Shown: in pieces, positions 8,123 through 56,238 of the stretch
Numbering within the stretch: the stretch's first letter is position 1
How the letters are laid out: every line of letters begins with the position of its first letter
Assembly (NCBI GenBank): GCA_026874595.1
Contig: CM049306.1
Span: 17,629,019-17,693,018 of the forward strand
Direction of reading: 5' to 3'
Source: Sipunculus nudus
Taxonomy: Eukaryota; Annelida; Sipuncula; Golfingiida; Sipunculidae
Length of the DNA stretch: 64,000 bases
The notes under the pieces: generated by a model
Told to the model about the DNA's origin: nothing
Database searches by the model: none
What the model saw: the letters and a program-made list of their open reading frames with translations, nothing else
Made by a program: the position numbers and the translations under genes

Positions 8123-10632
8123 AACAAGGCCAACAGGCCTAATGCGAACCTGTGCAACAAGATTACACAAGGTATAATGCTTCAATGCTGGACCATTACT
8201 TTTCAAGAACATGTGTAACATGTATATGAACAATGCAAGTACTAAACACTAAACGGACGCTGTGCAAAAATGGTGGCAGGTGGCACCACCAATTTTGTGT
8301 ATGAATAAGAGCTCTGTGAGATCTATACACATGCAAAATTTCAGAGGGATCTCAGTCCTGAGATAAAGGCCTGAATGTCTGCAGCATATACATAAATGTA
8401 GGTGGTGCCACCAGCCACAAAATCCAGAAAGCTATCCAAGATGTATAAACCTGCAAAATTATAGGCAGATATGTCAAACCACTGCCGAGATATGAGTGAT
8501 TTTATCTCACGGCAAACAAACAGACGAATGCTGTGCAAAAATGTTTGCAGGGGGCGCCATCGCTTTTGCGTATGATAAAGAGCTATGTGAGGTCTATAAA
8601 CATGCAAAATTTATGCCCAATCGGTCAAATGGTTCCTGAGATATGAGCTTGGAAGTCTGCAGGGTAAATTTGAATGTAGGTGGCGCCACCTGTCATAAAA
8701 TCAAGAAAGCTGTCAAGGATGTATAAACCTTCAAAATATCAGGTGGTTAAGTCAAACCACTGCAGAGATATGAGTGATTTTATCCAAAGGCAGATGAACA
8801 GATGGATGCTGTGCAAAAATGGTTGCAGGTGGCGCCACCATTTTTAGTGTATGTTATAAACTTTCCAAGGGCTACATTTGGGCAAAATCTTTAGCCTTAT
8901 CGGTCAAAAGGTTTATGTGTGGAAACAGACGCACAAATGGATGCTGGGCAGAGAGGAAAGGTCAGAGGTCAACCAGAAAGAGGGCGCAGCAGTCCACATG
9001 TGACCGATCATAATTCCTAATTTTAAAAAATTCTGCCCAGTGGTTATGGAGGAGTTCTCCGGAAACCTATGCGGCGATGGCGGCAGCGTAGGCGTCCAAC
9101 TGAAAACATAGTATCCGCAAAACTCTGTTTTGGCGGATACAATGATGGGACAATGGGCACTGGGCAGAAATTTATTTTCCCAATACAAAATGCTTTTCAG
9201 CTGACTTTTTATAAAAAAGAAATCAGGAATATATGTAAAATTATTACAGATGCATACTGAATGCAAAATTAAAATACAGATATATCTCACTGATGGCAAA
9301 TTCTTGAATTAAGTTGAGTAGGGATACCAATAATTTATAATCCATGTACAGTTGTCTTTATATAGCCACAGAGAGCTGAATATCCATGATTGTGACATTG
9401 CCTGGTATGATGAATAACTTAAATCAAAATTCTAAATTTTTTAAAAGCTTTTAAAAAAACTTTCTTGTCAATATTTACCAAAGATAACCTGAAATCTAAA
9501 TGTCTAGTGGCATGATGTAATAGATGCTGATAAACTGGTGCCAGGCTAGATACAACAGCATAACATATATGGTAAAATTACTCAATTTAATCTCCATAAT
9601 TCAGCAAAAAATCATTCATGTGGAACCATTAATGACAATTATTATAAGAATTATTGTAGGGATTATTCTTGTAAAATATTTAACAAACTGGCTTCAGTCT
9701 CATCAGTCGAAAAATGTTTCGCAGGTTTATAACTCATATAGGAAGATACAGCAATCTGGCTATGTTCAGCTTCCTGTAACTCAGCCAAAAAGCACTGAAC
9801 CAAAACCATTTGAACAAACTTGAATTATCAACATCTGAGGATAATTAATGTGTGAGATTTAAGAATTTGGCCCTGTGGTTTTTGAGAAGAAGATCTTTGT
9901 AGCCACTGAGCTCAAATCGGCTGTTTTGGCATATAACTAAATTCAGCTTCCCATAACTTAGACAAAAGTCACTGAAAAGAGACCATTTGAACAAACTCAA
10001 GAAAGCACTACCCTAGGATCATTTCTGTGCAATATTAAACATTCTGGCCATATGGTTTCAGAGAAGAAGTTTTTTGTAGCCCTCAGTGGGATACAGACAC
10101 TGATGACCCTGTACAAAAAAGGCTGATGCAGGTGGCACCACCAATACCTCAATTTCAGATATGACCTATGTGACCAACATTGGCATAAAATTTGGTGATG
10201 AAAGCTCCAGCCGTTTCTGACATTTAAATTTTAATATGCTTTTTTGCACAATTAACAAAGTTCAACCTCCTGTAACTCAGCCAAAAATCTCTGAACTGGA
10301 ACCATTCGAACAAACTTGAGAAAGATTGTTCCAAGAATAATTTCTGTGAAATATTGGACAATTTGGCTGGACAGTTTTGGAGAAGAAGATTTTTAAAGCT
10401 TTTTTAGCGTTTTCCCTATAAAATCTAAGAAAATGCAGTTAGAAAAAAATAAACAAAATCCGATATAGTTTTTTGGATGACTGATTATTTGCAAAAAATT
10501 TGGTGAGATTTTTTAATTTGCAAAAAAATTTTTGAGATAGCTATGGTTAACGTACAGACGATGCACGACGCACGACATACGACGCACGACACACGACACC
10601 GCACCATCGCATAAGCTCACAGGTTCGCTAAA
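8123..10632 (+). mobile_element. Family A element, copy 1 (A/D composite), inserted in a LINE
   Basis: The 5' end is AACAAG at 8123, then an AGGCC-type palindrome and subterminal GCGAACCTGTG (8144-8154). The 3' end has the exact reverse complement CACAGGTTCGC (10618-10628) then TAAAA. An ACGACGC-type CpG tract (10558-10600) sits just before the 3' end. The internal part 8276-9142 is a family D core plus D 3' hairpin; 9160-10550 is family A right-flank sequence with degenerate repeats of an 'aactcagccaaaaa' phrase. The small ORF at 9524-9823 is repeat-derived and not considered a gene. Confidence 0.85.
8276..9142 (+). repeat. Family D tandem core and 3' hairpin inside family A copy 1
   Basis: Core units alternate about 130 and 147 bp apart. 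Exact GGTGGCGCCACC sites are at 8679-8690 and 8828-8839, with imperfect ones near 8278 and 8401. A CGGCG-rich tract near 9070-9092 is followed by the hairpin GTATCCGC...GCGGATAC (9111-9140), the D family 3' terminus. No D 5' end (AACTAG) is present. Confidence 0.8.
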
Positions 10633-11400
10633 AATTCATGAGACTGTTTCTAAATTAGAAGTGTGTATATTATCCATAGGATCATGGACGAGGGAAAACA
10701 GACTTGAACTGAATGAAGACAAGACTTAAGTTATTATGGCTGGTACCAAATTTAATCTTAAGAAAATGCAGAATCTTAGAGTTAAGATTGGTGATGATAT
10801 AATCCAGGCAACTTAATGTGAAAGAAACCTTGGTTTTTATATGGGTAGTACACTCAGTGGTAGAGAGCATATAAATAAAGTATGCTCCTCCTCATATATC
10901 ATGTTAAAACGACTGTGTAACAAGGAAAGTTTTAGCTCAAGCATAAGTCATGAGTAGAGTCGATTAATGCAACAGTCTACTCGTTGGTGCATCCCAGAAG
11001 GAAATGAACCGTTTGCAGTGTATTCAGAATATGTGTGCTCGCCTTGAAACAGGTCTAAGAAAGTATGACCACATCACGCCCTGGCTGAAAGCCCTTCACT
11101 GGCTGAAAATTCCATACAGAATTAAATATAAGATTCTAGTATTAACTTTTAGGTGTATTAAGGGAGCAGCACCTGAATATCTTATTTAAGCTCTTAAATT
11201 AAAATAAATGGTTAAGGTAAGCCACAGCTGGCAAGGTACAGATCCCTGCCAGGCATAATATGTCTTTAACTCTACAAGGTTGTTTTGTACAGGTAGCTCC
11301 TAGGCTTTGGAATGCTTTACCTTGGAACCTTAGAAACACAGATGAAATGTCTGTTGAATTATTTAAGTCAGGACTAAAGACTCAATTCTAACTCTTTTGT
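10633..11400 (+). pseudogene. CR1/Jockey-superfamily LINE, part 2 (C-terminal region)
   Basis: This continues the RT copy at 7395-8122. The translation first gives IHETVSKLE and then ENRLELNEDKT, the usual connection after the YADD block. Further on it shows ARLETGLRKYDHITPWLKALHWLKIPYR-type sequence (11040-11130) and APRLWNALPWNLRN-like sequence near 11295-11330. Several stops and frameshifts are present. The 3' end of the LINE is around 11400; no poly(A) is obvious. Confidence 0.85.
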
Positions 11401-12191: not shown

Positions 12192-12633
12192 AACAAGCAA
12201 TTTAAAGAAATTTATGTCCCCAGCTTTCACCTCCAGGTCTAGGAAGATTTTAAAGTATGTTGTAGGTACAAATAGTTTAACCATGCTCAAAAGATGGCAG
12301 CACCTGGCAGTTACTGCAAAAATTCATGTATTTTATGTCCATTGCCAGCAACACCAGTTGGTGATTAGTGAAACTAAATGTGCTGATTCATTATATAAAA
12401 AAACAAAATATCATATTGTATTATTATCTTGTGAGACAGACACTCCAAAACCAATTCCAACCAAGGTAAGCATGAGAGCAATCACTGACCCAAATCTGAA
12501 TGAAATTGGATAAAATTTAGGAAAGTTATCACACAGAAATGAAAACCTGACAGACGGACAGACAGACAGACAGATGCACAGACAAACCCAAATCAATGTT
12601 CCCCATTCCTTCCAAGGAAGCAGGGGACAAAAA
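12192..12633 (+). mobile_element. Family E element (compact, ~440 bp)
   Basis: AACAAG at 12192-12197 is followed by subterminal TTTATGTCCCCAGC (12211-12224). Near the 3' end a GACAGACGGACAGACAGACA tract (12548-12575) precedes a hairpin with arms GTTCCCC and GGGGAC (12598-12628). The last arm with its flanks (GCAGGGGACAAAAA) is the reverse complement of the 5' motif at most positions. It is the shortest complete example of the plan shared by families A-F. The open frame inside (12184-12513) is not gene-like. Confidence 0.65.
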
Positions 12634-17590: not shown

Positions 17591-19981
17591 AACAAGTGAC
17601 CCATGGGTCATGACGCTCAGCTGACTGGGAAGAGATTCGCAAAAGGAAATTTTATCATCAGAATGGTAGTATATACCCATTCAAATGAAGCATCAAACAG
17701 ATTAACCAACAGGCCAAGATTTAGTCTGTATTTATATATCTCAAAAATAGAGAAAAATGTGTAAACTTTTAAAACTAGAATACGGGTAACCGACACGTGA
17801 CTACATGTATCTGCCAAAATCGTATAGTGAGGCATGGATTGAGTGGCAAGGGGAAATAGAGTGAGGTATGTTGCATATTAGCATGGATGTCTGCAGCCTA
17901 AATGTGTATGTAGGTTGTGCCACCTACCACAAATCCAGAAAGCTGTCCAAGATGTATACACCTGCAAAATTTTAGGCAGAAAAGTCAAACCACTACATGT
18001 ATATGAGCGATTTTTGCCCATGGCAGACAAACAGACAAACACTGTGCAAAAATCTTTGCAGGTAACCCCTCCAGTTTTGTGTATGATAAAGACCTATGTG
18101 AGATCTAAACACATGCACAATTTTGGCCCAATCGGTCAAATGGTTCCTGAGATATGAGCTTGGATGTGTGCAGCGTTAACTAGAATGTAGGTGGCGCCAC
18201 CTGTCATAAAATCAAGAAAGCTGTCCACGATGTATAAACCTGCAAAATTTTAGGCAGTTATGTCGAACCACTACAGAGAAATGAGTGATTTTAGGCCACG
18301 GCAGACTAACAGACAGACGCTGTGCAAACATTGTTACAGGTGGCGCCACCATTTTTTGTGTATGTTACAGAGCTATCAAAGGGCTACATTTGTATAAATT
18401 TTATTTCCTGATCGGTCAAACGGTTCCCAAGATATAAGCTTGGATGTCATCAGCGTGAACGTGAACGTAGGTGGCGCCACCTGTCATAAAATCAAGAAAG
18501 CTATCCTGGATGTATACGCATGACGAATTTCAGGTGAATCAGTCAATTCACTGCAGAGATATGAGTGATTTTAACCAAAGGCAGATGAACAGATGGACAC
18601 TGTGCAAACATGGTTACAGGTGGCGCCACCATTTTTTGTGTATGTTATAAAGCAATCCAAGGGCTACATTTGTATCAATTTTATTTCCTGATCGGTCAAA
18701 CGGTTCCCGAGATATGAGGGTTTATGAGTGGAAACAGGCCCACAAATGGACACTGGATAGAGAGGAAAGGTCAGAGGTCAACGCAAATTGGTTAGGCACC
18801 AGTTCACATGTGACCCAATAATAGGTGTAAGTTTGGGAAAAATCGGTCCATTAGTCTCCGAGGAGCTCTCTGGAAACGAACGCCGCCGCGGTGGAGGAAC
18901 TCGGTCAAAAACATAGTATCCGCAAAACTTCGTTTTGGCGGATACAAAAATACAGGTGGCTCCACCAGTCTGCAGAAACTAATAAAAACACTTAATGGTC
19001 AATATCCATGCAAAAAATCATGGTGATCTCTGCATTAGTTGTTCAGATACTTCAGTTTTTGTATCAAATTGTCCATTATTCTGAGGGATACTTCGGAGTC
19101 CTATAGCTTGAAGGATATGGGTAACAGAGACCTAATTTCAAGTTTCCACAGGCACCTTTCATGGGCCTCCTTGCATGACAAGAATGAAGATTCTAGGTCC
19201 AGTCATTACGATTTGTGCCACGCTAACAGATGACAGCATCCTCAAAGGTCTCAAAAATAGAGGAAAAAATCGTAAAAAATCAAACAGTACAGGTGGCGCC
19301 ACCAGTCTGCAGGAACTGATCGAACATCTCATGATCAATATGTATGCCAAAAATGAAGACCATCAGTGATGTAGTTATTGAAATATTGAAGTTTTTGTAT
19401 GAAATTTTTTACTATTCTGGGGGGTACTTTGGGGCCCCATAGCTCGAAGGATATGGGTAACAGAGACCTAATTTCTGGTTTCCAAGGAGATTTTTCATGG
19501 ACCTCTCAATGTGTCAAGAATTAAGATTCTAAGTCCAGTCTTTATGATTTGTGCCTTGTTAACAGATGTTCACATTTTTAAAGGTCTCAAAAATAGAGAA
19601 AAAAATTCGTAAAAAATCGAAAAATACAGGTGGCGCCACCAGTCTGCAGGAAGTGATGTAACATCTCATGATCAATATGTATGCCAAAAATCATGACCAT
19701 CAGTCAAGTAGTTTATGAGATATTGAAGTTTTTGTATGAAATTTTTGACTTTTCTGGGGGGTACTTTGGGGCCACATAGCTCGAAGGATATGGGTAACAG
19801 AGACCTAATTTCTGGTTTCCAAGGAGATTTTTTATGGACCTCTCAGAATCCCAAGTTACAAGGTTCTAGGTCCAGCGGTTACGATTTGTGCCTGGTTAAC
19901 GGACGGACAGACGGACAGACGGATGACGGACAAAGAGTGATCGCTATAGCTCAGATGACTTTCAGTCAGCTGAGCTAAAAA
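17591..19981 (+). mobile_element. Family B element, copy 2, with a nested family D element
   Basis: AACAAG (17591-17596), then the perfect 14 bp palindrome TGACCCATGGGTCA (17597-17610), then subterminal GCTCAGCTGACT (17615-17626). The core after 18948 consists of ~335 bp units with GGTGGCGCCACC at 19292-19303 and 19629-19640. A GGACGGACAGACGGACAGAC tract (about 19900-19920) precedes the hairpin TAGCTCAGaTGACT / AGTCAGCTGAGCTA. Its last arm AGTCAGCTGAGC (19964-19975) is the exact reverse complement of the 5' motif. Family D (17773-18947) is inserted near the left end. Confidence 0.85.
17773..18947 (+). mobile_element. Family D element nested in family B
   Basis: The 5' end is AACTAG (17773-17778) followed by subterminal GTATCTGCCAAAATCG (about 17810-17825). 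The core has exact GGTGGCGCCACC at 18190, 18339, 18470 and 18619. A CGCCGCCGCGG tract (about 18880) precedes the 3' hairpin GTATCCGCAAAAC / GTTTTGGCGGATAC (18916-18945). The last arm is the reverse complement of the 5' motif, then AAA. Confidence 0.85.
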
Positions 19982-20207: not shown

Positions 20208-21561
20208 ATATCCTTGAGAAAAATAGATCCCTCTAATATGAAGATGTGCTGACATGTTTAAGTAGCTTTATCAAAACTGAATGTAGCTTTAAAAATAATT
20301 GTTAAAAGCTTTTACAAGTTAATACAAACAAGCACTCTGAGATGATGGTGTACCACTGGTTGCTATGAAACCAACATGGTCTGGCAGGTTAAAAATACCA
20401 CACTATTTACAGGGTCTCTCCTGTGATCATTAATTTTTTCTTAACAATTCCTTCAAACAAGATCTGTCTAAACTTGGTGTGATGTAACAGACTGATGATG
20501 CGCGTGTGATGGAAAAGACATTGATTCAAGTAATTGTGCTTTAGCTGGAAGCTGTAATGTTTATGTGGTAGCCACGCAACCATGACTGTTTGAATATACA
20601 GTTTTCTGATAGACAGTAAAATCTGATGCATTTGACCTTTACCATTAATATCATCTCTATAAAAAACATCTTACACACATAATTAGTTATCATGCTCAGT
20701 TGGGTAGCTATTTAATTACCATTCTACTTTAAAGACTATCACATAGAAGCTGATGTATTTTTTTTCTAATACCCAGTCATAGTCAAACCACCAACACCTA
20801 AAATCATTGTTTAGAAGCCTCAACTTTGTATTACCTTTTGTGGCCTTAAATCCATGATCATGGCATAGAAATATTAGTGTGACAGCACAAATTAAGCCAT
20901 TCAGTAATAATAAAGATGAATCTTAATATTGAATGCATATCCCTCCTTTTTTAAAAATAGTTATAGATCCTACAAAATCCTATCAAAATTTCATCACTAG
21001 TTCTTTCCAACTGCTATATATAATATTTTTATGTAATAAAATACTCAATCATGCTGTCTATAAATCTGTTTGAAGCATTTTCAGGCAGAGATAAATGCTC
21101 CCTTAGGCTCAAAATATGTCTTAAAACAGTAGAGAATCTTTCTTGGTAAGTGATATACCCGACCAGTAAACACGCCATTTTTCATTCTATTTGATCACAA
21201 TCTAATTTACACTCAAAATAGTGTTAAAATTAATTGATATTTCTTTCAGACAATCTGTTAATTTACTTTTACCATAATTTTCCAGGAAATATGAGAATTT
21301 ACTTTAATCAGTCTATGGCATTATTTCATAGCATTCTTTTTACATAAAGTAGTTTATGTTTTTGTTAATATTATTATTATTATTCTGTTATCAGATTTAT
21401 TAGTAATTAATTTAATATTGTTCAATTAAATGGTATTTAGAATTTTTTTTCATTTTTGTTGTCATTGCTATTTAGATACTACCGGTAGGTAGGTAATGAT
21501 GCACCAGTGCACTAATATGACATAACACAAAGTCAAATGGAATAGCTTTATTTTTGCAGAG
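20208..21561. other. Uncharacterised intronic DNA
   Basis: AT-rich with no recognised exon, RNA gene or repeat terminus. Confidence 0.5.
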
Positions 21562-22248
21562 CAAAAACAGATATATGTCTCCCCCTTATAGGCCATCCCA
21601 AAACATTAGGGGTAAAATATGCACATTCTCAAAATAATAATTCTAGATTTCAGCAGATTTGACCTTGAGGGTCATGGACAAGATCAATGCTAGATAAAAA
21701 TTGTCAGTACTTCCAGTGTATTGGGTACACAATCATCTTAGAATTGTATTAATTTGACCTTGAAGATCAAGGTCAAGTTCACTGGATTTCAAACTCCTCT
21801 GCGATTTTGGTAGGAACAATGAATGTTTAAAATGTTGGAGTAAAATATGCAGCCCTTCAAAAGTTATTGTGTTCACATGACAATAACTATAATTTGTCCA
21901 ATTTGATCTTGAAGTCATCAGGTTTTAAACTCATCCGAGAACTTGGTAGGAACAATTGGTGTACCAAATTTGAGGAAAAAATGATAAGTACTTCAAAAAT
22001 TATAAGGTTCACAAAAATTGTACATTCCGGCAGATTGGACCTTGAAAATTAAGGTCAAGGTCACTGGGTTTCATACTTGTCCGAGATACTGGTAGAAACA
22101 ATAAGTGTTTAAAATTTTGGAGGAAAATATGCAGCCCTTCATAAGTTATTGCGTTCACAAGAGAATCCTACAGACAATGACAACAACAAACAAACACAGA
22201 CCATGGCACTGAAAATAACGTCTCCCCTGGAGGGGGGAAACATAAATA
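21562..22248 (+). mobile_element. Family F element
   Basis: Near the 5' end AACAG is followed by ATATATGTCTCCCCCTT (about 21571-21587). The 3' end is a hairpin (TCTCCCCT / AGGGGGGA, about 22220-22237) followed by AACATAAAT. Reverse-complemented this reads ATTTATGTTTCCCCCCT, a close match to the 5' motif. The core is ~170 bp units beginning 'gaccttgaagatcaaggtca'. The tract before the hairpin (ACAATGACAACAACAAACAA) could be a CpG-decayed form of the tracts in other families. Confidence 0.6.
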
Positions 22249-34382: not shown

Positions 34383-34597
34383 AATGGACCTATTCAAGGT
34401 CAAGGTCATTCTCCTAGCATAGGTCATGACCCCATTTTAAATAGGCTTCGTCCTCTTACCTTGTCTATACAAATGTAAAGTTTGAAAAACATCAGTGAAA
34501 TATTTTTTGAGTTATCCCACTCACAAGGTTTTTCTGCGGCGGCAGCGGGGGGACCGTCATGAAACCATAGTATCCCGACTTTGTCTGGGGATACAAT

Positions 34598-36630: not shown

Positions 36631-36863
36631 TATTTCTGGGGGGTGCAAACACACCCCATAACTTCGAGAATATAGGTCGCAGTGACCTAATTTCAGGTTT
36701 GCAAGGAGATCTTTTTAGAATCTCTAAGACTGCATAGGGTTCATGGCCCTAGCCCCTACGGTTACGATTTGTGCCCTGCTAACGGACGGACAGACGGAAG
36801 AACGCCGGACAAAGACCCATCGCTATAGCCCAGCATGACTGAAAGTCAGCTGAGCTAAAAACT

Positions 36864-40437: not shown

Positions 40438-41219
40438 TATCCGCCATGCTTAGACTCCTACATGGACAATGAAGTCCCTGCAGTATCTCCATCAACTAGA
40501 TTACTACAGTTTCTCCATCTACTAGAGTACTACAGTGTCTCCAACAACTAGAGTACTACAGTGTCTCCATCAACTAGAGTATTACAGTGTCAGCATCAAC
40601 TGAGTACTACAGTGTCTGCAACATTTAGAGTACTACTGAGTCTCCATCAACTAGAGCACTACAGTGTCTCCACCAGCGAGAGTATTACAGTGTCTCAAAC
40701 AACTAGAGTACTACAGTATCTCCAATAACTAGAGTACTACAGTGTCTCCAAAAACTAGAGTACTACAGTGTCTTTAAGTACTAGAATTCTAGTGACTTTA
40801 ATAAACACTTTTTAACAGGGTCTCCAAAAACTAGAGTAATACAGAGTCTCTAACAACTAGAGTACTACAGTGTCTCCAACAACTAGAGTACTACAGTGTC
40901 TTTAAGAATTCTAGTGACTTTAATAAACACATTTTAACAGGGTCTTCAACAACTAGAGTACTACAGTATCTCTATCAGACAGAGTTCTGCAGTTCAACAG
41001 CCAAAGTTTTTGATAATCTATGAAATCTGGATATGGGATGATCCATATGGAAAATGGGTTATTTGGATCATCTTTTATATTTTTTTTGTGATAAAGGAAA
41101 AATCTGAAGACACAAGAAGATACTGCATTCTTAATGCCAGCACTGTCTGTGGGTACTACAAAGAGCACTTGATACAGTTAAATACTCTACAACACAAAAA
41201 GTAGTCAATAGTGAACAAT
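40438..41219 (+). other. Putative 5' leader exon of the GPCR, containing a minisatellite
   Basis: A pyrimidine-rich tract with TGTTTGTTTCAG ending at 40437 is a plausible acceptor. No convincing upstream coding ATG runs into the receptor frame, and TAG at 41202-41204 closes the frame. This stretch would thus be a noncoding leader of about 780 nt. It is inference from splice signals only; transcript data are lacking. Confidence 0.35.
40488..40985 (+). repeat. ~26 bp minisatellite (CTAGAGTACTACAGTGTCTC units)
   Basis: About 18 imperfect copies of a unit reading roughly CTAGAGTACTACAGTGTCTC plus CAACAA. They are interrupted twice by 'ttctagtgactttaataaacacattttaacagg' blocks (about 40785-40820 and 40908-40942). 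The array sits in the putative GPCR leader. Confidence 0.9.
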
Positions 41220-42257
41220 ATGAACAATACGACAGGGCAGACAGCAGAGGAAACCTGGCATGCACAGCAGAGGAAAATTGGACGAATAATTGAACTGACA
41301 GGGGCAGTTCTATTGCTGGTATTTGGTTTTATATTAAACATGGGTGCTATACTTATCATAAAAAGAAAGAGGAAGAAATTCTCTTGGCATGAAAAATTCA
41401 TCATAGTTTTGCTGGGTTTGAACTTGAGTCTGTGTTTGCTAATACTTCCTCTACAAATTGCGATAAAAGCTAGTGAGCGAGTGCTTGGTGTTGTGACTTG
41501 CCGGCTCTATGCATTTGCCTTTTTCTTTGTCCAGGGGACTACCATATTTAATCTGCTCATGTTGACTGTGCATAGATATATGAAAATTGTGCACACTGAT
41601 ATGGCCAGCAGGATAGAAGCCACACAAGCCTATCTTATTATAACAATTATAGCCTGGATAATCATCACACTGATACTGTTACCTCCGTCACTCAAAATTG
41701 GAGCTGAATTTGGTTTCAATGCCATTTCGCATGCATGCACATTTGTTGGAAAGCACAGCATCTTGTACAGGAACTTAGTGTATTCCTTCACTATTGGTAT
41801 ACCACTTGTGGTGATGATTACTTGTTACTTACATATCTACATCACGGTACGGAGACAAAATCGTAAAATGATCACACATCAAACTGAATCGCATCAAAAT
41901 CCTCAGGCTAAGCGAAGAAGAAAACGAGAGCTAGATATTACAAAGACAACAGTTCTTATCTGTGCAACATACATTATTGGGTTTGTCCCCCTGGTCATAT
42001 GCTCAGCAATGGGAATGGCTTTGAAAAATCCAGTAGTACAAGCCTTGGCAAGTACACTAGCACTAGTTCACTGTATCATTAATCCTTTAATCTATGTCCA
42101 CAGCAGCTACAAACAGGTGCTCAATACAATTAGAAATATATGCCCTTGTACCAGTAAAGTTACAGAAATAGAAGAGTTATCCATAGAGCCATCCATAGTG
42201 GGTACCAGAGCTGCTGTGCCACCCAATCATGAGATTCAAACTGTGACAAACACATAA
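41220..42257 (+). CDS. Class A (rhodopsin-like) GPCR, orphan, 345 aa
   Basis: A single-exon 7TM receptor at the cell surface. The start is the ATG at 41220. An upstream GTG at 41211 is in frame but is not a eukaryotic start, and TAG at 41202 closes the frame. Residue numbers from that ATG: N-glycosylation sequon NNT at 2-4; TM1 about 26-48; TM2 60-82; conserved ECL1/TM3 Cys94; TM3 ends HRY (118-120) instead of DRY; Trp146 in TM4; ECL2 Cys173; Pro195 in TM5; basic loop 3 (KRRRKRE); TM6 GFVP (254-257) instead of CWxP; TM7 NPLIY (288-292); Cys308/Cys310 for possible palmitoylation. The position of the usual TM2 Asp aligns with Leu73. The TM3-ICL2 style vaguely recalls melatonin/GPR84/Tre1-type receptors, but the ligand cannot be named. 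It lies inside the NCKIPSD intron on the opposite strand. Confidence 0.9.
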   Translation: MNNTTGQTAEETWHAQQRKIGRIIELTGAVLLLVFGFILNMGAILIIKRKRKKFSWHEKFIIVLLGLNLSLCLLILPLQIAIKASERVLGVVTCRLYAFAFFFVQGTTIFNLLMLTVHRYMKIVHTDMASRIEATQAYLIITIIAWIIITLILLPPSLKIGAEFGFNAISHACTFVGKHSILYRNLVYSFTIGIPLVVMITCYLHIYITVRRQNRKMITHQTESHQNPQAKRRRKRELDITKTTVLICATYIIGFVPLVICSAMGMALKNPVVQALASTLALVHCIINPLIYVHSSYKQVLNTIRNICPCTSKVTEIEELSIEPSIVGTRAAVPPNHEIQTVTNT

Positions 42258-43141: not shown

Positions 43142-43860
43142 TGCAGTGTACTCTTCATGAAGCAATGTCATTGCAGTGTACTCTCCATGAAGCAGTGTCA
43201 CTGCAGTGTACTCTTCGTGAAGCAATGTCATTGCAGTGTACTCTTCATGAAGCAATGTCATTGCAGTGTACTCTCCATGAAGCAGTGTCACTGCAGTGTA
43301 CTCTTCATGAAGCAATGTCATTGCAGTGTACTCTTCATGAAGCAATGTCATTGCAGTGTAATCTTCATGAAGCAGTGTCATTGCAGTGTACTCTTCATGA
43401 AGCAATGTCATTGCAGTGTACTCTTCATGAAGCAGTGTCACTGCAGTGTACTCTTCATGAAGCAGTGTCACTGCAGTGTACTCTTCATGAAGCAGTGTCA
43501 TTGCAGTGAACTCTTCATGAAGCAATGTCATTGTAGTGTACTCTTCATGAAGCAGTGTCACTGCAATGTACTCTTCATGAAGCAATGTCATTGCAGTGTA
43601 CTCTTCATGAAGCAATGTCATTGCAGTGTACTCTTCATGAAGCAGTGTCACTGCAGTGTACTCTTCATGAAGCAATGTCATTGCAGTGTACTTTTCATGA
43701 AGCAATGTCATTGCAGTGTACTCTTCATGAAGCAATGTCATTGCAGTGTACTCTTCATGAAGCAATGTCATTGCAGTGTACTCTTCATGAAGCAATGTCA
43801 TTGCAGTGTACTCTCCATGAAGCAGTGTCACTGCAGTGTACTCTTCACGAAGCAGTGTTA
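43142..43860. repeat. 30 bp satellite array, 24 units
   Basis: The unit is GTGTACTCTTCATGAAGCAA plus TGTCATTGCA, about 24 copies in exact 30 bp register. Because 30 is a multiple of three and the unit lacks stops in several frames, long ORFs exist on both strands (minus 43990-43067 with a ten-residue EEYTAMTLLH repeat; plus 43157-43861). No start context, splice or domain supports translation. Units come in two linked forms, CAATGTCATTG and CAGTGTCACTG. Confidence 0.95.
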
Positions 43861-44405: not shown

Positions 44406-46305
44406 AACAAGGGACCCATGGGTCACAGCGCTCAGCTGAAGTTTGAAATTTTTACCAAATGCAAAAATATGAAAATATTCTATTGTCATGTTTTTCATTT
44501 ATATAAGCATATGAGAAGCTGAGAGGAAACTGGCCCTCCTACTTGGTTATAGTAAAGTTCTAAATATATGATTGCAAACTAATACTCTGACAAGACTGTC
44601 ATGAAGAAAAACAGTAACAGTTTTGAGATAATGTGATGCATATGAAAAATTTACAGATGGACAGGCAAGTGGACAGAATGGACTAATACCTTTATTTCAC
44701 TTTCAAGAGAATAATGCATTTAAGTTTATATATAAGTCTATTTTTTTAGCATATCCACTTTTTCCATTAATAGTTTTTATCAGATTCATTTTTTTATTTA
44801 CAAGTTTTATAAATTTGTAATAAAAAAACCTGAAAATATAAGTTAAAATATTAGAATTCTAAGTTGCAATCATTATATATCCAGAGTGTGGCTCATATTG
44901 GGTCATATTATGCATACACATCTATTTTATTATTTTAAAAACACAAATGTTTAAACTGAATTTAAAAGAAAATAATGCCACAACATGGCATCTACAAGAT
45001 TATTCCTTGAATCACTATTAACAAGTTTTGCACATTGGAGTTTTCAGTACATGCTTAATTTTATTCATTGAAATGAAATAAAATATTCAGTAAATTTGAT
45101 AAAATAAAAACATCTTTTCAAATAAAGTATACACACTGTTGGTTGAATGAGGAACAAACAATATCATTGTGCTAATTACTATCTCATATTTATTACTGGA
45201 ATTAATATTCAATTTCACACCTGGGGACGTTTTTACTCTTCTGAAGTAAGGAATTACTTATCTGATGAACATCCACACTTTCATAGCAATACACCACTTT
45301 GTGGACACAATTAAATACGCACTTAAATCACTGTAACCCTGGTGGTACATACAAAATCTAAAATGTAGCATAGCCAAGAATAAAATAAAATTCAGAAAAT
45401 TATAACATTCATCTAGTTAATGCACCATCTGGGGGGGGGGGGGGCGAGTGCAGGGCAGAGGGGAAGCCTGCTAGTAGTGGCCAAGCTGAGCCAAGGCAAG
45501 CTGCCTGGGGTGGGTTACATAATGCAAGTGAAGGCTGTACTACTAGGTGGGCTAGATGTAAACAACACTTGACATAGTGTATGGAATCCTGAATAAAAGC
45601 TGCTCTTTTCAATCAATTCCTTTGAAATTTCAGATTTTAAAAGATTAAATCCTTATGTATGTATGTTGTGAAAATTATATCGACAGTGCTAACAGGGAAA
45701 AAACATGCCATTGCCAAAGTTGGACAAAATTTAAGGTACTGATTTTTAATTTATGCTAATAACTTGACAAATTTGCAAAATTCAGATCTAATTTTGGGTA
45801 AACAAATGAATCTTGATTAAATAAAGTTATATTCCTGAAAAAATGTCTCCAGTTTCAGCAATTCTCATGTTAGGTGAGTAAACATATTTCCTGATTTTTT
45901 AAAAATTGCATTATATTTGGGCCCATAACTTCAAAATTATACACAATACTGACCTAATTTTTGGTATATTCATAGAAAATCTATGGAAGTATATGAATAC
46001 TAAATATGATCAAAAACAGATCAGTGGTTTTGATATTAGGCAGCCTTGAAGTGTAAATATGGCTTTTTTTATGGAAAACAGAAGTTTTTCCTTAATATCT
46101 TGAAGGAACAAAGTCCTAATGACCCAATTTTCGGTATGGTAGGAGATTTTGGAGACATCTAATGGTATGCACAGTTTTGGATTCGTAGGTCCAACGCTTT
46201 TAAAACGTGCCCTGTTAACGGATGGCCGGCCGGACTGCAGGACAGACGGACGAGGGACAAAGGACCACGACTATAGCTCAGATGACTTATAGTCAGCTGA
46301 GCTAA
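44406..46305 (+). mobile_element. Family B element, copy 4
   Basis: AACAAG (44406), GGACCCATGGGTCA, GCTCAGCTGA. The 3' part has a GGCCGGCCGGACTGCAGGACAGACGG-like tract (about 46224-46252) and the hairpin CTATAGCTCAGATGACT / AGTCAGCTGAGCTA. It is a close relative of 3845-5167; the segment 44873-45388 has no counterpart there. A G-run at about 45431-45443 matches the G-run of copy 1. Confidence 0.85.
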
Positions 46306-46321: not shown

Positions 46322-48557
46322 AACAAGGCCTACAGGCCTAATGCAAACCTGTGCAATGGGATATATATCACATTAAATGTTTCCATGCTTAACCGTTACT
46401 TTTCATGTACATGTGTGGCATGTACATGTACAATTCAGGTACTAAACATTTTGAACCTTAGTATAAGCACCAATTTTTCAGCAAATTTATCTGCAAAATT
46501 ACAGGAAGAATCTTCAAACCACTCTCGGTCTATGTGCACAGATGCATGAAACCAAAAGCAATTGTAGGTGGCACAACAGGTTTTGTATACCACAAAATTA
46601 TCCAAGATGTATGGACACGCATAATTTCAGGCTGATTTGATAAACCACTCTTGAGAAATAAGCAGGAGCATACACAGTGCAAAAATTATTGTAGGTGGTA
46701 CCATCAGTCTTGTATATGACAAAGCTATCCAAATGTATGTATGCCTAATATCAGGCCTGCCGATGAGGAAAAAACTTGCTAAAACTTGCATAACTGGGAA
46801 ACCCGGTGAAATACAGCCCAAATGGCTGAAACTGCAAGTACAATGGCGATGGGTCTCGAAACAGTGTCGTTCACAAGATCGAGTTCGGCTCTCCAATGGC
46901 ATGGCTGGGTCTCCACTGCTGGGATCGGTAGAGGGAATGTGGGTTGCTTCTGGCTTTGTGGCTTTGGATGCTGTAGCTTTCTTAAAAGGTCACCTGCTCG
47001 GGATGGACGATGGCGGCCTTTGCGGCTCCCTGCTTGGCTTGGCGTGGAACTGCAACTGTTGGCTCAGAGAACATGCTTAAGGAGCGCACAGGGCTGAGGT
47101 CTTGACCGCAGCAACCTGTAGCTGCTCGATGAGCGTATACCTTCATTGGCTTGGCTAATTTCACGCTGACATATCAAATCCCTCCTAAGAAATAAGCAGG
47201 TATATTCACTGTGCAAAAGTCATTGTAGGTGGCGACATTAGTATAGTGTATGAGAAAGCCATAAAAGACTCATGGACAGGTCAAAACATCAGGCCAATAC
47301 ATCAAACTTCTCTTGAGTCAGGTGCACTGGGCTAACCAGGCTTATGTGAGAAAGGCAGTTGCCCCTAGTGAATTGGAACGAATTGCTGGCACCAGCTACT
47401 GCACTGAGTGAACTCTTGACCTGCACCTGGCTGAACTGAGTAAAGTCTTGATCTGTACCTGGGTCCACTGTGTGATCTCTTGACCTGTTGCATAATCTGA
47501 CACAGTAGGCAGTCTGCTAAAGCTATAAATAGATCCAGACTGACCATTGGCCTGTTGCCAAATCTGAAATAGTTGGCAGTCTGCAAAGCTATTTATAGAT
47601 ACAGACACAATCTTGGCCTGTAAGTAACATCTTTTTACACATTCTGAAAGACTTTGGCTAAAATGTTTTTTTTCAAGCTGACATATCCATAAGATTGTTT
47701 GATCTAAATGTTTAGAATAATAAAAGATGTAGTCCTTTCATTGTTAAAGGTCAAATAATTCTGCAAACAATCATTAATGTAAACTTGAACAAAGGCCTCC
47801 TGAGAATCATTTTGGTGCAATATTGTAGAAGGTGAAACAACAGTTTTGCAGAAAAAGGAGTATTGCAGTCCTCAGTTTGAAATAGGCTTACTAATGGCCA
47901 CAAGACCAATTTCATGCAGCTTTCTATGACTCTACCAAAAGTAAACCAAATCTTTTCTTATGCAATTGAAAGAACCCTACCCTAGGATATTTCTTGTGAA
48001 AAATTAAATGATTCAGCTTGACAGTTTCATCAAAAACCATTTTTAAACTAAAGAGGCTAAAATTATGAGAATGTTGCCTGTAAAAACAGGTTGATGTAAC
48101 CCCTCAAAAACTGCAATTTCAAATATGAGTCACGTGACCAACATTTGCAAAAAATTGGTGATGCTAGCTCCTGTCAATTCTGAGATTTTTATGTAAGTAT
48201 GATATAATGGCCAAATGACTAAGTTCAAATTCCTGTAACTCTGCCAAAATTCATCAAACCCAAACTATTTGAACAAACTTGAGAGAGCTTTTTCTCTGGG
48301 ATCATTTCTGTGAAGTATTAAACCATTTGGCTGAATGATTTCAGAGAAGATTTTCAAAGGTATTTTTTTAGCCTTTTTTCCTTATAAAATCTCAGTTTAT
48401 GCAAATAGCAAAAAAAGTAAATTTTTTAGATGACTGGTTTTTTGCATAAAATTTGGTGATGCTAACTCCAACCATTTTTGAGATTGCATGGGTTGAGGTA
48501 CGGATAACAGCGGAAGGACTACTCAGCGCCATCGCAAAAGGTCATCGGTTCACTTAA
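46322..48557 (+). mobile_element. Family A element, copy 2
   Basis: AACAAG (46322), then AGGCCTACAGGCCT, then GCAAACCTGTG. The native A core (46480-47320) has units with 'tgcaaaaattattgtaggtgg(c/t)...cca' and no family D insert. The 3' end is decayed (CATCGGTTCACTTAAA near 48543-48557). A GC-rich foreign segment (46757-47165) interrupts the core. It starts only 16 bp after the family B copy. Confidence 0.8.
46757..47165 (-). pseudogene. GC-rich insert with coding-like composition inside family A
   Basis: About 409 bp with higher GC and CpG than its host split the family A core phrase between 'atatcaggc' and 'ctgacatatcaaat', which are contiguous in the other copies. On the minus strand the first 180 nt are open and protein-like (KLAKPMKVYAHRAATGCCGQ, then PRQAKQGAAKAAIVHPEQ). 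A stop near 46980 is followed by another open frame down to 46760, suggesting a frameshift. No family was recognised. It could be a captured gene fragment or an inserted retro-element piece. Confidence 0.45.
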
Positions 48558-48758
48558 AGTAAACAAGGATGCATTATGTCTATCACATAAAAGGAAAGAC
48601 TCATAAAGGGTCATAAACTTGTCACAAAGCTGAGCTCTCTCATGCAATATCAAGTTAAACTCTCACATAAAGGCTGACAAAACTATGATATAATATTTTC
48701 ATATAGAAAAGATGGTGGGGACAGTGTTACAGAACAGGGACATTTTGAAGCCACTTAC

Positions 48759-48868
48759 TGTAAGTTTTCTCTCTGCTGATGGGTGTAGCTACCTCCAGCA
48801 CTGCTGGCAGCAAAGTGAATGGTTTCTATAGCCCTATCAATGGACCGCAGCACCTCAGAATAAGCCAC
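48759..48868 (-). CDS. NCKIPSD: NCKIPSD (SPIN90) coding exon 2
   Basis: The acceptor is ATACTAG (AG at 48870-48869) and the donor is ACA|GTAAGT (48758-48757). The exon has 110 nt: 36 codons plus CA, phase 2 out. It reads VAYSEVLRSIDRAIETIHFA then ASSAGGSYTHQQRENL. The VL-x-x-IDRAIE-x-xH block is a hallmark of NCKIPSD immediately after the SH3 domain, and the spacing from the SH3 YL motif (13 residues through VL) agrees with the human protein as remembered. In phase with exons 1 and 3. In vertebrates this protein binds Nck, Arp2/3 and diaphanous formins and controls actin nucleation. Confidence 0.88.
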
Positions 48869-49441
48869 CTAGTATACAAAATCAGCACCATCCTAAATAA
48901 AAGTATGAAATACAACAAATACAATCACCTAGAATTCAATATTAAAAATCATTGGAGACACAAAATACATAAAAATACTAAATGTAAATTTGGGTCACAT
49001 CAGTAGCAGATTCTTAATTATTGCTGGCCTAAAGTAATAACAATCAAATCTTAAGACACTACTAGGTTAAAACAAATAAAGCATTTAACAAGAACAAATT
49101 GAACAATTTATATGAATAATTTACACTCCTTTTACTGACATTAATACAAATAAACAAATAACATATCAGAAAGATCTGGAAATACTTGTATGTAACTTAA
49201 AAAAGTCCACTTCAAGTGGCTTGCTCTTACTGGACACCTAGAATAACTTATTTTTTTCAAAATGTTAAAATGGTGACATTTTTTTTAGACAGGTTGTTAG
49301 ACAGCACACAGCTGTAGGTTTGAAATGATAAACTGTTCATGAGATCTAATATAAAGATAAAACTACAGATTTTTTAAATAAAGAATTTTAAGCCATGGTG
49401 ACAAATTAAGGCTACATAAATAATAATTTAAGTTTCCTTAC
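48869..49441 (-). other. NCKIPSD: NCKIPSD coding intron 1 (573 bp)
   Basis: Bounded by donor AAT|GTAAGG at 49441 and acceptor TATACTAG at 48869; phase 0. AT-rich, no inserted repeat recognised. Confidence 0.85.
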
Positions 49442-49609
49442 ATTATCCTTTGACAGGTAGTTACACGGGACATATCCCACTTCTCCGAAGCCATTCTGAA
49501 CAAGCCACCAGTAATCATTGGAGGAGTCAAGGACAGTAAACTGGTCATTTGCTGAGAAGTTTAAGGCGTGTGCATCGGAATCTTTGAAGTCATACAATGC
49601 CCGGTACAT
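49442..49609 (-). CDS. NCKIPSD: NCKIPSD (SPIN90) coding exon 1, SH3 domain
   Basis: The ATG is at 49609 and the exon has 56 codons ending SKDN|, followed by the donor GTAAGG. The start MYRALYDF matches the unusual NCKIPSD start in which the SH3 domain begins at residue 1 (human MYRALYAF). Canonical SH3 positions are visible: ALYDF, the WW pair (residues 34-35) for the polyproline pocket, GYVP and the closing NYL. In vertebrates this domain binds proline-rich partners while the C-terminal domain engages Arp2/3. A 5' noncoding exon may join at ATGCAG|TCATTGCAACATG just upstream. Identification by motif only; another SH3 protein is unlikely given exons 2 and 3. Confidence 0.9.
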
Positions 49610-50041
49610 GTTGCAATGACTGCATGGGTTGGTCTACTTCAGCTGAGTGTTTCTGAGCTGTATCTCTCTACAGTGGAAATGTATACAAATATATATATAT
49701 ATATATAAAATATACTAAGGTGTGTGATGAATCTAAATCACTACCATCGGTTTCACCTCATCGGTTCATCAGGTGACTGCGGTTCAACTAATTGCAATAT
49801 TGGTTTTTATTGTTTCATTTTTGAACGGTTGGGTGCCCTTGGTCCATGGCGACAGGTGGAAACAATTTGAGGTTTCACTATCACCTGGTCTATAATCAAA
49901 CAGTAAAACTCATTCATGACCTCTTCACATCAGTGCAACTTGTATTTGGCAGAGAAACTAGCAATCATAAGCTCAAAACAAAAGAACCTATTCAACAAAC
50001 TTTTGGAAATGGTTTCCACCTGTTGCAAACCAAAATAATTT

Positions 50042-50107
<66 letters not shown>
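49610..50107. other. NCKIPSD upstream region with TA microsatellites
   Basis: (TA)n at about 49689-49708 and 50048-50107. No promoter motif could be assigned. The ORF at 49846-50211 runs through the microsatellite and is not supported. Confidence 0.5.
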
Positions 50108-50110
<3 letters not shown>

Positions 50111-51219
50111 TCAAGCCCGCTTATTGTCATGTCGGTGGTGCATGCATAAATTATGATAATAACCGGGATGTGATATTATGCGGGCTTAAACATCAATGTC
50201 CTTTTAAGTAATAGAAGAAGCGTTATGTCTAAAATGATATTAAATATATAGTCAATAAAAAAAGAAACAGGAACGTTTATATATTTATTGTACAACGGCA
50301 TATCAAATTACGTTTATGCACACCTGACAATTTATTTCCTGTAAATTTTGTGTTGCATGCCGCAATAACTGACAAAAATCTGACTTGCCAACAGAAAATG
50401 ATGTAGCGTCTGCATGGGTCGTGAGGTTATACGTCTGGAAATATGCAAGCGGCACAGTTAAAACGTTATGAAGTCAAACTATTTTACTAGATATAATTCT
50501 TTCCCCGACAATTGCACCTTATTTTCTCGATATCTTAATGACCCAAACTTCCCTGATCGTCTTTATGATAGGTCTGTTCAGGGATCGGGCATCGTCATGC
50601 CCTTGTCAACTTTCTGAAGTTTCGCCGCGATTGAGGTTTTGGACCGGGTATCTTCTCCAGTGCTTAACAAAACCTCCAGATTTCCGTAGACCATTCAAGG
50701 GGATTTCCAGTCGTAAGCAACATTTAGAGCTCGTGCTTCATATCATCTCAGCGAAATGTCACTGAAGTGTAAATCGCGACCTTTCAAAGGCCAGGAGTTC
50801 ATTATGTATGATATGTGATCGAAAACATCGTCCTTGTAAACGTACGAAGAAACGCAATGATTTGGATTACCTTGTTATTATAAGATGTTAATAAGCTAAG
50901 TGACGGGGTATACCCGCATGCATCACTCCACTTGCCTGCCACACACAGGTGGGAGATGCAATCGTTTGATACGCCTGACCAATCACAGGCACTTGGCCTC
51001 GTTGATCACCGTCTCGGCGTTTGATGTGATATTAACTGCGAACTGGTATCACTGCTGAAGGTTCAAAGCATGACAATAAAAGGGATTATGACAATATTCC
51101 ATGATATTAAACGGTCAGATTTACCATTGTCTATATAGGAAATGGTTTGGGATTTCAGATTTATGTGACAATAAACGGGATTTTCTATTTACCGATATGA
51201 CATAAAGTGGGCTCGTCTG
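50108..51219. mobile_element. pogo/Tigger-like DNA transposon, non-autonomous (~1.1 kb)
   Basis: The ends are inverted repeats: CAGTCAAGCCCGCTTATTG at 50108 and, reverse-complemented from 51219, CAGACGAGCCCACTTTATG, continuing to GTCATRTCGGT (about 28 bp total). The element is flanked by TA on both sides (50106-50107, 51220-51221), as for Tc1/mariner/pogo insertions, and sits inside a TA microsatellite. No transposase frame is intact; the ORF 50538-50765 lacks recognisable motifs. Confidence 0.8.
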
Positions 51220-51288: not shown

Positions 51289-51294
<6 letters not shown>

Positions 51295-52612: not shown

Positions 52613-55600
52613 AACAAGGCCTACAGGCCTAATGCAAACCTGTGCAATGAGATTACACCAGGTATAATGCTTCAATGCTGGACCATTACTTTTCAAGAAC
52701 AGGTGGCGCCACCTGCCAAAAAATTCCAGAAAGCTATCCAAGATGTATAAACCTGCAGAATTTTAGGCTGATAAGTCAAACCGATACTGAGATATGGGTA
52801 ATTTTAGCCCACGGCAGAAAAACAGACGGACCCTGTGCAAAAATGGTGGCAGGTGGCACCACCAATTTTGTGTATGATTAAGAGTTATGTGAGATCTACA
52901 CATATGCAAAATTTCAGGGGGATATATCAAACCAGTCCTGAGGTATAAGCCTGAATGTCTGCAGCATATACATAAATGTAGGTGGCGCCACCTGCCACAA
53001 AATCCAGAAAGCTATCCAAGATGTATAAACCTTCATTAGGCTGATATGTCAAACCACTGCCTATTATGAGTGATTATATCCCACGGCAAACAAACAGACA
53101 GACGCTGTGCAAAAATGATTGCAGGTGGCGCCACCACTTTTGAGTATGATAAAGAGCTATGTGAGATCTATAAACATGCAAAATTTTTGCCCAATCGGTC
53201 AAATGGTTCCTGAGATATGAGCTTGGATGTCTGCAGCATAAATTTGAATGTAGGTGGCGCCACCTGTAAAAAAATCAAGAAAGCTGTCAAGGATGTATAA
53301 ACCTGCAAAATATCAGGTGGATAAGTCAAACCACTGCCAAGATATGAGTGATTTTATCCCAAGGCAGATGAACAGATAGACGCTGTGCAAAAATGGTTGC
53401 ATGTGGCACCACCAGTTTGGGTATGATAAAGAGCTATGAGAGATCTAAACACATGCAAAATTTTGACCCAACTGGTCAAACGGTTCCCGAGAAATGAGAT
53501 TGGATGTCTGCAGCTTAAACGTGAATGTAGGTGGCACCATCTGTCATAAAATCTAGAAAGCTGTCCAGGATGTAAACACATGCAAAATTTCAGATGGATA
53601 AGTCCAACCAATGCAGAGATATGAGTGATTTTATCCCAAGGCAGATGAACAGATGAACGCTGTGCAAAAATGGTTGCAGGTGGCGCCACCATTTTTAGTG
53701 TATGTTATAAAGCTTTCCAAGGACTACATTTGTGCAAAATCTTTAGCCTTATTGGTCAAACGGTTCCTGAGATATGTGGGTTTATGTGTGGAAACAGACG
53801 CACAAATGGATGCTGGGCACAGAGGAAAGGTCAGAGGTCAATGAAAAATGAGGGCGCACTAGTTCACATGTGACTGATAATAATTCTGAATTTTAAAAAA
53901 TTCTGCCCAGTGGTTATAAAGAAGTTCTCCGGAAACCTATGCGGCGATGGCGGCAGCGTCAGCGTCTGACTGAAATCATAGTATCTGCAAAACTCTGTTT
54001 TGGCGGATACAATGATTGTAGCTGGCACCACCAGTCTTATATACAACGAAGAGATATATAAATATGCCCAATGTCAGACCGATATGTCAAACCCCTCCTG
54101 TGAAATAAGCAGGGACATACACTGTGCAAAAATTATTGTAGGTGGCGCCACCAGCCTTGTACACTATAAAGCTACCCGATATGTATAAACATGCCAAATT
54201 TTAGGCTGATGTATCAAATTCCTCTGTAGAAATAAGCAGGCGAATACACTGCAAAAGTCAATGTAGGTGGCACCACCTGTCTTATAAGAATACCAACATG
54301 TCTTATGAGAATACCATCAAAGACACATAGACAGGTCAAAATATCAGTCCAATAAATCAAACTTCCCAAGAGTTTGATGCACTGGGCTGACAAGGCTTAG
54401 GTGAGTAAGGCAGTTGCCCCCGAGTGACCTGTGACAAATTGCTGCCTCAAGCTACTGCACTGAGTGAACTCTTGACCTGCACCTGGCTAGACTGAGTGAA
54501 CTTTTGACCTGTACCTGGCTGCACTGAGTGAACTCTTGACCTGTTGCATAATCTGACAAAGTTGGCAGTGAGCCAAAGCTATAAATAGAATGCAGCTACT
54601 GCACTGAGTAAAATCTTGACCTATACCTGGCTGCAGTTCTTCCAATCCTGGCACTGTGCCAAAATTATTTATAGAGCTGACATCATCTTGGCTAATGGCC
54701 AACATCAAGGCACTGGCAATCTGCCAATGGTAAACCAAGTGCTGCCATCTGTACACAAAAGTGGTCCCTACTTGAAATAACTTTGAAATTTATTTTTCCA
54801 ATACAAAATGCTTTTCAGCTGACTTTTTATAAAAAAGAAATCAGGAATATATGTAAAATTATTACGGATGCATACGGAATGCAAAATTAAAATACAGATA
54901 TATCTCACTGATGGCAAATTCTTGAATTAAGTTGAGTAGGGATACCAATCATTTATAATCCACATTCAGTTGTCTTTATATAGCCACAGAGAGCTGAATA
55001 TCCTTGTTTGTAACATTGCCTGGTATGATGAATAACTTAAATCATAAATTTAAAATTTTTAAAAGCTTTTAAAAAAAACTTTCTTGTCAATATTAACTAA
55101 AGATAACCTGAAATCTAAATGTCTAGTGGAATGATGTAATAGATGCTGATAAACTGGTGCCAGGCTAGATGTAACAGCATAACACAGCTAACATATAAGA
55201 TAAAATGACTCAATTCAATCTCCATAATTCAGCCAAAAATCATTCATGTGGAACCATTAATGATAATTATTATAAGAATTATGGTAGGGATTATTCTTGT
55301 AAAATATTTAACAAACTGGCTTCAGTGGCATCAGTCGAAAAATGTTTTGCAGGTTTATAACTCATATAGGAAGATACAGCAAACTGGCTAAGTTCAGCTT
55401 CCCGTAACTCAGCCAAAAAGCACTGAACCAAAACCATTTGAACAAACTTGAATTATCAACATCTGAGGATAATTAATGTGCAAGATTTAAGAATTTGGCC
55501 CAGTGGTTTTTGAGAAGAAGATCTTTGTAGCCACTGAGCTAAAATGGGCAGTTATGGCATATGATTAAATTCCAAAAGTCACTGAAAAGAGACTATTTGA

Positions 55601-56238
55601 ACAAACTTCAGAAAGCACTACCCTAGGATCATTTCTGTGCTATATTAAACATTTTGGCCATATGGTTTCAGAGAAGAAGTTTTTTGTAGCCCTCAGTGTG
55701 ATACAGGCACTGTCAACCCTGTACAAAAAAGGCCGATGCAGGTGGCGCACCAATACCTCAATTTCAAAAATGACCTACGTGACCAACATTGGCATAAAAT
55801 ATGGTGATGATAGCTCCAGCCATTTCTGAGATTTAAATTTTAATATGCTTTTTTGAACAGTTAACAAAGTTCAACCTCCTGTAACTCAGCCAAAAATCTC
55901 CGAACTGGAACCATTCGAACAAACTTGAGAAAGATTGTTCCAGGGATCATTTCTGTAAAATATTGGACAAATTGGCTGGACAGTTTCGGAGAAGAAGATT
56001 TTTAAAAGCTTTTCTAGCTTTTTCCCTATAAAATCTAAAAAAAAAAAAGTTAGAAAAAAAGTAAACAAAATCCGATTTAGTTTTTTGGATGACTGATTAT
56101 TTGCAAAAAATTTGGTGATGCTAGCTCCTGCCGTTTTTGAGATAGCTATGGTTAACGTACAGATGACGCACGCCGCAGGACGCACGACACATGACGTACG
56201 AGGCCGCACCATCGCATAAGCTCACAGGTTCGCTAAAA
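52613..56238 (+). mobile_element. Family A element, copy 3 (full A/D composite)
   Basis: AACAAG (52613), AGGCCTACAGGCCT, GCAAACCTGTG. The family D core and D 3' hairpin fill 52702-54012; native A core units follow (54013-54300), then the A right flank shared with copies 1 and 2. The ACGCCGCAGGACGCACGACAC-like tract (about 56167-56190) precedes CTCACAGGTTCGCTAAAAA. ORFs inside (for example minus 56212-55886) are repeat-derived. Confidence 0.85.
52702..54012 (+). repeat. Family D tandem core and 3' hairpin inside family A copy 3
   Basis: Exact GGTGGCGCCACC at 52702, 52981, 53124, 53253 and 53679, with imperfect ones near 52850, 53402 and 53531. Spacings alternate near 130 and 147 bp, so the true unit is about 277 bp with two palindromes. 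It ends with a GCGGCGATGGCGGCAGCG tract and the hairpin GTATCTGC...GCGGATAC (53981-54010). Confidence 0.85.

Follow-up and report, generated by a model that had tools for sequence, protein, structure and literature searches.

The closest described systems are rolling-circle transposons of the Helitron2/Helentron branch, and three papers describe the layout of their ends. In Helitron2, the 5′ asymmetrical terminal inverted repeat (ATIR) lies 0–2 bp from the 5′ end within a 5′ hairpin, and the 3′ ATIR lies about 20–30 bp from the 3′ end, directly upstream of a second hairpin; in the model proposed there, pairing of the two ATIRs undoes the 5′ hairpin and sets the endpoint of replication (Bao and Jurka 2013, PMC3627910). 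For HINE (non-autonomous Helentron), DINE-1 and Helentron elements, the subterminal inverted repeat (subTIR) is the family-defining feature; the 3′ subTIR of mite HINEs lies 38–60 bp from the end, and non-autonomous copies in mites and flies have matching autonomous partners of their own (Thomas et al. 2014, PMC4067079). In the oyster Crassostrea gigas, the left flank of Cg_HINE consists of a subTIR, a complementary inverted repeat and a microsatellite, and the right flank of a subTIR and a palindrome; that account matches no autonomous partner to the HINEs (Vojvoda Zeljko et al. 2020, PMC7492417). We analyzed a 64,000-nucleotide stretch of contig CM049306.1 of Sipunculus nudus (the window), in which an initial annotation had described six repeat families, A to F, with a common terminal architecture. 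We conclude, with a probability of roughly 0.87, that the families belong to the non-autonomous, HINE-type rolling-circle transposons within the Helitron2/Helentron branch. Their end layout has already been published for Helitron2 and HINE, and the families themselves may be undescribed.

Boundaries, matched ends and polarity

We aligned 14 ends carrying AACWAG and 15 hairpin ends of families A–D in register and determined the pairwise identity within families. At the AACWAG end, the identity was 108/114 (0.95) in the hexamer and 311/361 (0.86) over the next 19 columns inward, and it fell outside the hexamer to 28/95 (0.29), 31/95 (0.33), 53/190 (0.28) and 51/190 (0.27), going outward. At the hairpin end, it was 300/325 (0.92) over 13 arm columns, 67/75 (0.89) over the next 3 and 60/100 (0.60) over the next 4, and then dropped to 43/175 (0.25) and 112/375 (0.30). 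These results indicate that both termini are sharp element boundaries, past which homology does not continue within the window. The hexamer was exact in 12 of the 14 ends, the exceptions being AATTAG in C1 and ATCAAG in a lone B end. Family F, described initially as a variant of an AACWAG end common to A–E, has no AACWAG but a 7-bp stem outside its subTIR and AATAG just beyond. The hexamer alone is uninformative: AACWAG occurs at 110 sites in the window, and the 28 occurrences of TAACWAG (24.06 expected) were reached by 18 of 100 shuffles.

Two nested insertions have uninterrupted paralogous sites. The joined flanks of C3, which lies inside C2, aligned across the junction to 26057–26176 in C1 and, ungapped over 120 bases, to 34102–34221 in the array of C3 itself. 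The joined flanks of D1, which lies inside B3, aligned to the B3 array at 19577–19678 and 19249–19341, the alignments having small gaps where the sequence is rich in A. Neither insertion showed a target duplication. The same attempt for C2 yielded no paralogous site.

The subterminal motif of each element matches the reverse complement at its own far end. We compared 12 nt at hand-chosen motif sites, taking the best of nine offsets for own-end and cross-family comparisons alike. All 13 two-ended copies showed at most 2 mismatches in 12 (5 were perfect), versus 4–8 mismatches in all 134 cross-family comparisons. As ends were paired by matching motif, elements with mixed pairs fall outside the own-end count. 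The matching subTIRs of about 11–15 bp that characterize HINEs and Helentrons were thus found in every two-ended copy. In this respect the initial annotation was right, and the motifs and palindromes that it named for A–D are present at real element ends.

We infer the polarity of the elements from their layout. Reverse-complementing was needed because the elements match the Helitron2 and HINE layouts only on that strand, so that the AACWAG end would be the true 3′ end and the hairpin end the true 5′ end. AACWAG had been annotated as the 5′ end; its place at an element boundary stands, and the 5′ and 3′ labels need to be swapped. The likeness to HINEs and bivalve Pearl elements proposed at that time fits after the same correction, as the published layouts put the subTIR hairpin at the 5′ end. 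Read in this putative polarity, an element consists of a T-rich flank, a 5′ subTIR of 10–12 nt and an imperfect complementary arm (the 5′ hairpin, which A lacks), followed by a microsatellite-like tract, a core that is usually tandem, a 3′ subTIR located 21–34 nt from the end, a palindrome, and CTWGTT. The corrected polarity makes a puzzling set of families recognizable and supplies a search rule: a T-rich flank and a subTIR hairpin on the 5′ side, and a subTIR, a palindrome and CTWGTT on the 3′ side. As in Helitron2, where the 5′ ATIR is 0–2 bp from the 5′ end, homology is lost within 8 nt of the hairpin arm, the first base being ambiguous within a T-run.

Folds were scored as z values against mononucleotide shuffles. 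The 5′ modules folded in 13 of 15 cases (z −2.2 to −6.4), the exceptions being the two A copies. The z values were −5.5 to −6.4 for B2, B3, B4, C3, D1, D2 and the D end in A1, and −2.2 to −3.7 for B1, C1, C2, E, F and the D end in A3, the folds of E (−2.6), F (−2.4) and B1 (−2.2) being weak. The terminal hairpin originally assigned to the 3′ ends of B–F is hence clear in B, C and D, weak in E and F as well as in B1, and probably located at the 5′ end. Palindromes at the putative 3′ end are evident by sequence in A, B and C and weaker in D–F, much as first described; the B palindrome is exact in only 2 of 5 B ends and has one mismatch in the other 3. The 3′ modules beat the shuffles only in A and C (z −2.4 to −3.2). 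A short-period tract inside the hairpin end reached the window's 95% level (0.56) in 6 of 13 copies, F lying just at that level, and inside the other end in 1 of 13. The tracts are of the GGAC/GACA or GGC type; by eye, they stand out in A, B, C and E, less so in D and F.

Among the 11 copies with a hairpin, the 5′ and 3′ subTIRs agreed completely over a ten-nucleotide core in 7 and differed by a single edit in 4. None of the 11 hairpin arms matched the 5′ subTIR perfectly (1–3 edits), and the arms of the four unpaired hairpin ends were likewise imperfect (1–4 edits). The end-to-end match was better than the arm match in 10 of the 11 and equal in D1; copies of one family are not independent in these counts. 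A substitution in C3 occurs in both subTIRs and is absent from the C3 hairpin arm. The combination of an imperfect 5′ arm with better matched subTIRs is relevant to the 2013 model of termination.

Visual comparison of the ends suggests two or more lineages, A/B with a CTTG 3′ end and C/D with CTAG. The hairpin end carries GCTAAAAA in 6 of 8 A/B ends and GATACAAT in 6 of 7 C/D ends, and the 5′ flank is TTTTTA in 6 of 8 A/B ends and ATT in 6 of 7 C/D ends.

Cores and the shared box

Many element bodies are tandem arrays with units of 277–337 bp. A 12-bp palindrome, GGTGGCGCCACC, occurs at 20 exact sites and at 43 sites with at most 2 mismatches, versus 0–1 in 5 resamples. All 43 sites (8279 to 59950) are within assigned element spans. 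In A, B3, C and D elements, the box stands at the head of a repeated module of the core.

We compared the modules over about 100 bp downstream of the box, using 42 of the 43 sites (all but 34327, which lies in a GGC-rich tract) and 3 more divergent A2 sites added by hand. The mean scores exceeded those of block-shuffled sequences for A–D (136.5 vs 94.7), B–C (143.8 vs 110.6) and C–D (123.2 vs 94.7), and to a lesser degree for A–C (99.8 vs 84.1) and B–D (113.4 vs 101.8). The A–B similarity was indistinguishable from shuffled (100.7 vs 96.9). Pairs scoring above the 99% level of the window made up a fraction of 0.48 for B–C, 0.33 for A–D, 0.08 for C–D, 0.04 for B–D, 0.02 for A–C and 0 for A–B. 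In a separate comparison limited to above-threshold pairs, D–B was not among them, and with the box masked, the D module lost its excess similarity to C_25346, A1common and B4tail. The sharing between A and D is partly due to nesting, as A1 and A3 hold a D-type core with a D hairpin end; no D 3′ motif was found in A1 or A3 at ≤2 mismatches. The initial statement that most core sequences differ is half right, since A, B3, C and D have a box and, for the most part, a weakly related module in common.

Inventory of elements and other features of the window

The elements, which span 3845 to 60111 and so extend beyond the interval 8123–56238 first considered, are listed in Table 1.

Table 1. Elements assigned in the window, with ends named in the putative polarity.
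Element	Position	Strand	Description
A1	8123–10628	−	A, both ends; true 3′ end 8123, true 5′ end 10628
A1 interior			D-type core and D hairpin end 9111–9140
A2	46322–46358	−	A-type 3′ end only
A3	52613–56233	−	A, both ends; D-type core and D hairpin end 53981–54010
B1	3845–5162	−	B, both ends; without GGTGGCGCCACC box
B2	44406–46302	−	B, both ends; like B1; without GGTGGCGCCACC box
B3	17591–19975	−	B, both ends; 337-bp tandem core; hosts nested D1
Core module	18955–19640	.	Example headed by GGTGGCGCCACC; B3 sites 18955, 19292, 19629
B4	31719–36855	−	B 3′ end 31719, B 5′ end 36855, C2/C3 between; one element by inference
Lone B-type 3′ end	28839–28874	−	ATCAAG variant
C1	24717–26337	−	C, both ends; 326-bp tandem core; AATTAG variant
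C2	31886–34594	−	C, both ends; hosts nested C3
C3	33087–34379	−	C element nested in C2
D1	17773–18945	−	D, both ends; nested in B3
D2	26354–27632	+	D, both ends; opposite strand, adjoins 5′ end of C1
D3	59237–60111	+	D-type core and D 3′ end; left limit approximate
E	12192–12630	−	Single copy in window; subTIR match 2/12 mismatches; weak 5′ hairpin; GACA-type microsatellite
F	21541–22243	−	Single copy in window, weak; subTIR match 2/12 mismatches; putative end AATAG

Solitary AACWAG ends are at 46322, 28839 and 60111(−), and solitary hairpin ends at 9140, 54010, 20202 and 52217. For A2, no A 5′ end was found in 47300–50500 at ≤2 mismatches of 11, and the 5′ end of D3 was not seen. We assigned the B hairpin end at 36855 to the end at 31719, but it could belong to the B end at 28839 instead. 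The lone A 3′ end at 46322 and the lone B 5′ end at 52217, about 5.9 kb apart, could be one mixed-end element. A1 and A3 are 95% identical over 300 bp near the 5′ part (9561–9860 and 55189–55488). Such identity between copies whose nested D parts are unequal in extent suggests that they spread as composites.

A loose scan for an AACWAG anchor with a hairpin partner was dropped, as it passed 24 of 73 plus-strand and 10 of 37 minus-strand anchors versus 20–21% of all positions. The 15 pairs returned by a strict blind scan comprised 4 element ends, 6 pairs in the core box and 5 others, two of them of the AAGGTCA type and one, at 14610, with an AACWAG 34 nt away. Three patterns scanned in viral contigs and the core module scanned once in prokaryote genomes gave no matches, which carries little weight as these collections are not of animal genomes. 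A fourth pattern matched two viral contigs in the same stretch, showed no hairpin by eye, and was taken as chance. Rfam at gathering scores and the tRNA search gave no matches in the window.

The sequence TCAAGGTCA, which we take to resemble a nuclear-receptor half-site, occurs 25 times on both strands, versus 0–1 in 5 resamples: 11 times in B4 with C2/C3, 4 times in C1, 4 times in F and 6 times outside. An array of about 24 copies of a 30-bp unit at 43142–43858 is open on both strands. An uninterrupted open reading frame for a rhodopsin-family receptor (PF00001, E 9.5e-30) is present at 41205–42254, shortly after a 26-bp tandem array of 16 copies at 40481–40901. The frame at 503–1228 contains a reverse-transcriptase zinc-binding domain (PF13966, E 4.4e-08) and is probably a retrotransposon remnant.

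Proposed transposition and comparison with known systems

The layout is consistent with the following mechanism. An autonomous Rep/helicase encoded elsewhere in the genome would nick the 5′ end and peel off one strand. On arrival at the 3′ end, the subTIR there would capture its 5′ counterpart from the imperfect hairpin at the 5′ end. The 3′ palindrome and CTWG would mark the point of cutting and joining, and the strand would enter a T-rich target without duplication. We regard such a strand exchange between the ends as plausible. We further propose, tentatively and with considerable doubt, that ends and cores reassort: four or more end systems, each with its own subTIR pair, may have acquired one old module headed by GGTGGCGCCACC. 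Under that proposal, the subTIRs would be kept matched and the arm slightly imperfect, so that the ends form a built-in strand-exchange switch timing the end of rolling-circle replication.

Several observations weigh against the assignment to the Helitron2/Helentron branch. The two A copies have no 5′ hairpin (z −0.8 and +0.6), and the 3′ modules of B, D, E and F fold no better than shuffles (z +0.6 to −1.7). None of the five C and D copies reaches the periodicity level, and C and D insert at ATT with no long T-run. When twelve nucleotides are compared, the end-to-end match exceeds the arm match in only 8 of 11 copies; B4 and D1 show no difference, and in B2 the arm matches better. The 3′ subTIR is closer to the end than in mite HINEs (21–34 nt vs 38–60 bp). 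Finally, no Rep/helicase was found in the two Pfam-scanned frames, those of the zinc-binding domain and the receptor, among the four stop-to-stop frames of ≥200 aa in the window; the other two sit on the 30-bp array.

The initial annotation went further and proposed that one rolling-circle machinery mobilizes the whole set of families, with interchangeable recognition pairs; on this view, a single enzyme would recognize each subTIR pair by base pairing, as an address that can be exchanged. The layout kept in all families, the CTWGTT end of A–E, and subTIRs that differ between families and match within elements would agree with this proposal. We nevertheless consider it unlikely: the scanned frames hold no such enzyme, and a single machinery is not required because the ends fall into at least two lineages by eye. 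The matching of mite and fly copies to their own autonomous partners (PMC4067079) also speaks against it, a point offset by the oyster HINEs, for which a matched partner is lacking in the published account (PMC7492417). Cut-and-paste DNA transposons (DDE) resembling miniature inverted-repeat transposable elements (MITEs) would account for short inverted repeats at both ends, and Pearl-type elements have been classed as MITEs; the asymmetric placement of the repeats and the two nested sites without target duplication make this origin very improbable. That the families are immobile satellite arrays with composition-driven terminal motifs agrees with the tandem bodies and with the lack of enrichment of AACWAG alone, but it is scarcely credible given the boundaries, the nested insertions with empty sites, and the blind scan, in which 12 Markov resamples yielded 0–2 pairs versus the 15 observed, although no more than 4 of these 15 are element ends.

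The non-autonomous rolling-circle elements proposed here were compared with each known system as far as the cited texts describe it. Like Helitron2, they have a 5′ ATIR at the 5′ end, which lies in a hairpin in B, C and D and more weakly in E and F, a 3′ ATIR at a similar distance from the end (21–34 nt vs about 20–30 bp) beside a second palindrome, whose fold exceeds shuffles only in A and C, and a 5′ T, and like Helitron2 copies with full ends they show no target duplication, here at two nested insertions. Unlike Helitron2, they are linked to no RepHel protein here, family A lacks the 5′ hairpin, and many copies have long tandem cores. With the HINE/DINE-1/Helentron group, the subTIRs, the 3′ palindrome and the absence of target-site modification are shared, as are the arm complementary to the 5′ subTIR with DINE-1 and the microsatellite or tandem repeats with some members. 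The T-rich insertion of that group is resembled by the TTTTTA flank of most A/B ends and less clearly by the ATT of most C/D ends. The position of the 3′ subTIR differs from that in mite HINEs, and no autonomous partner was seen among the scanned window frames. The C/D ends (5′ TT, 3′ CTAG) resemble the proto-Helentron of PMC4067079. Canonical Helitrons (Helitron1: 5′ TC, 3′ CTRR, no 5′ hairpin) differ, as the elements have no 5′ TC and B–F have a 5′ hairpin; CTRR fits the CTAG of C/D and not the CTTG of A/B. The Cg_HINE and Pearl elements share the flank layout, the tandem repeats and the microsatellite (GTCY type in several), and related flanks with unrelated repeats occur there as here. In the oyster, one repeat cluster is consistently associated with one flank pair (PMC7492417), whereas in the window the box-headed module stands under several end pairs, which, if confirmed genome-wide, would set these families apart from the consistent core–flank association of the oyster elements.

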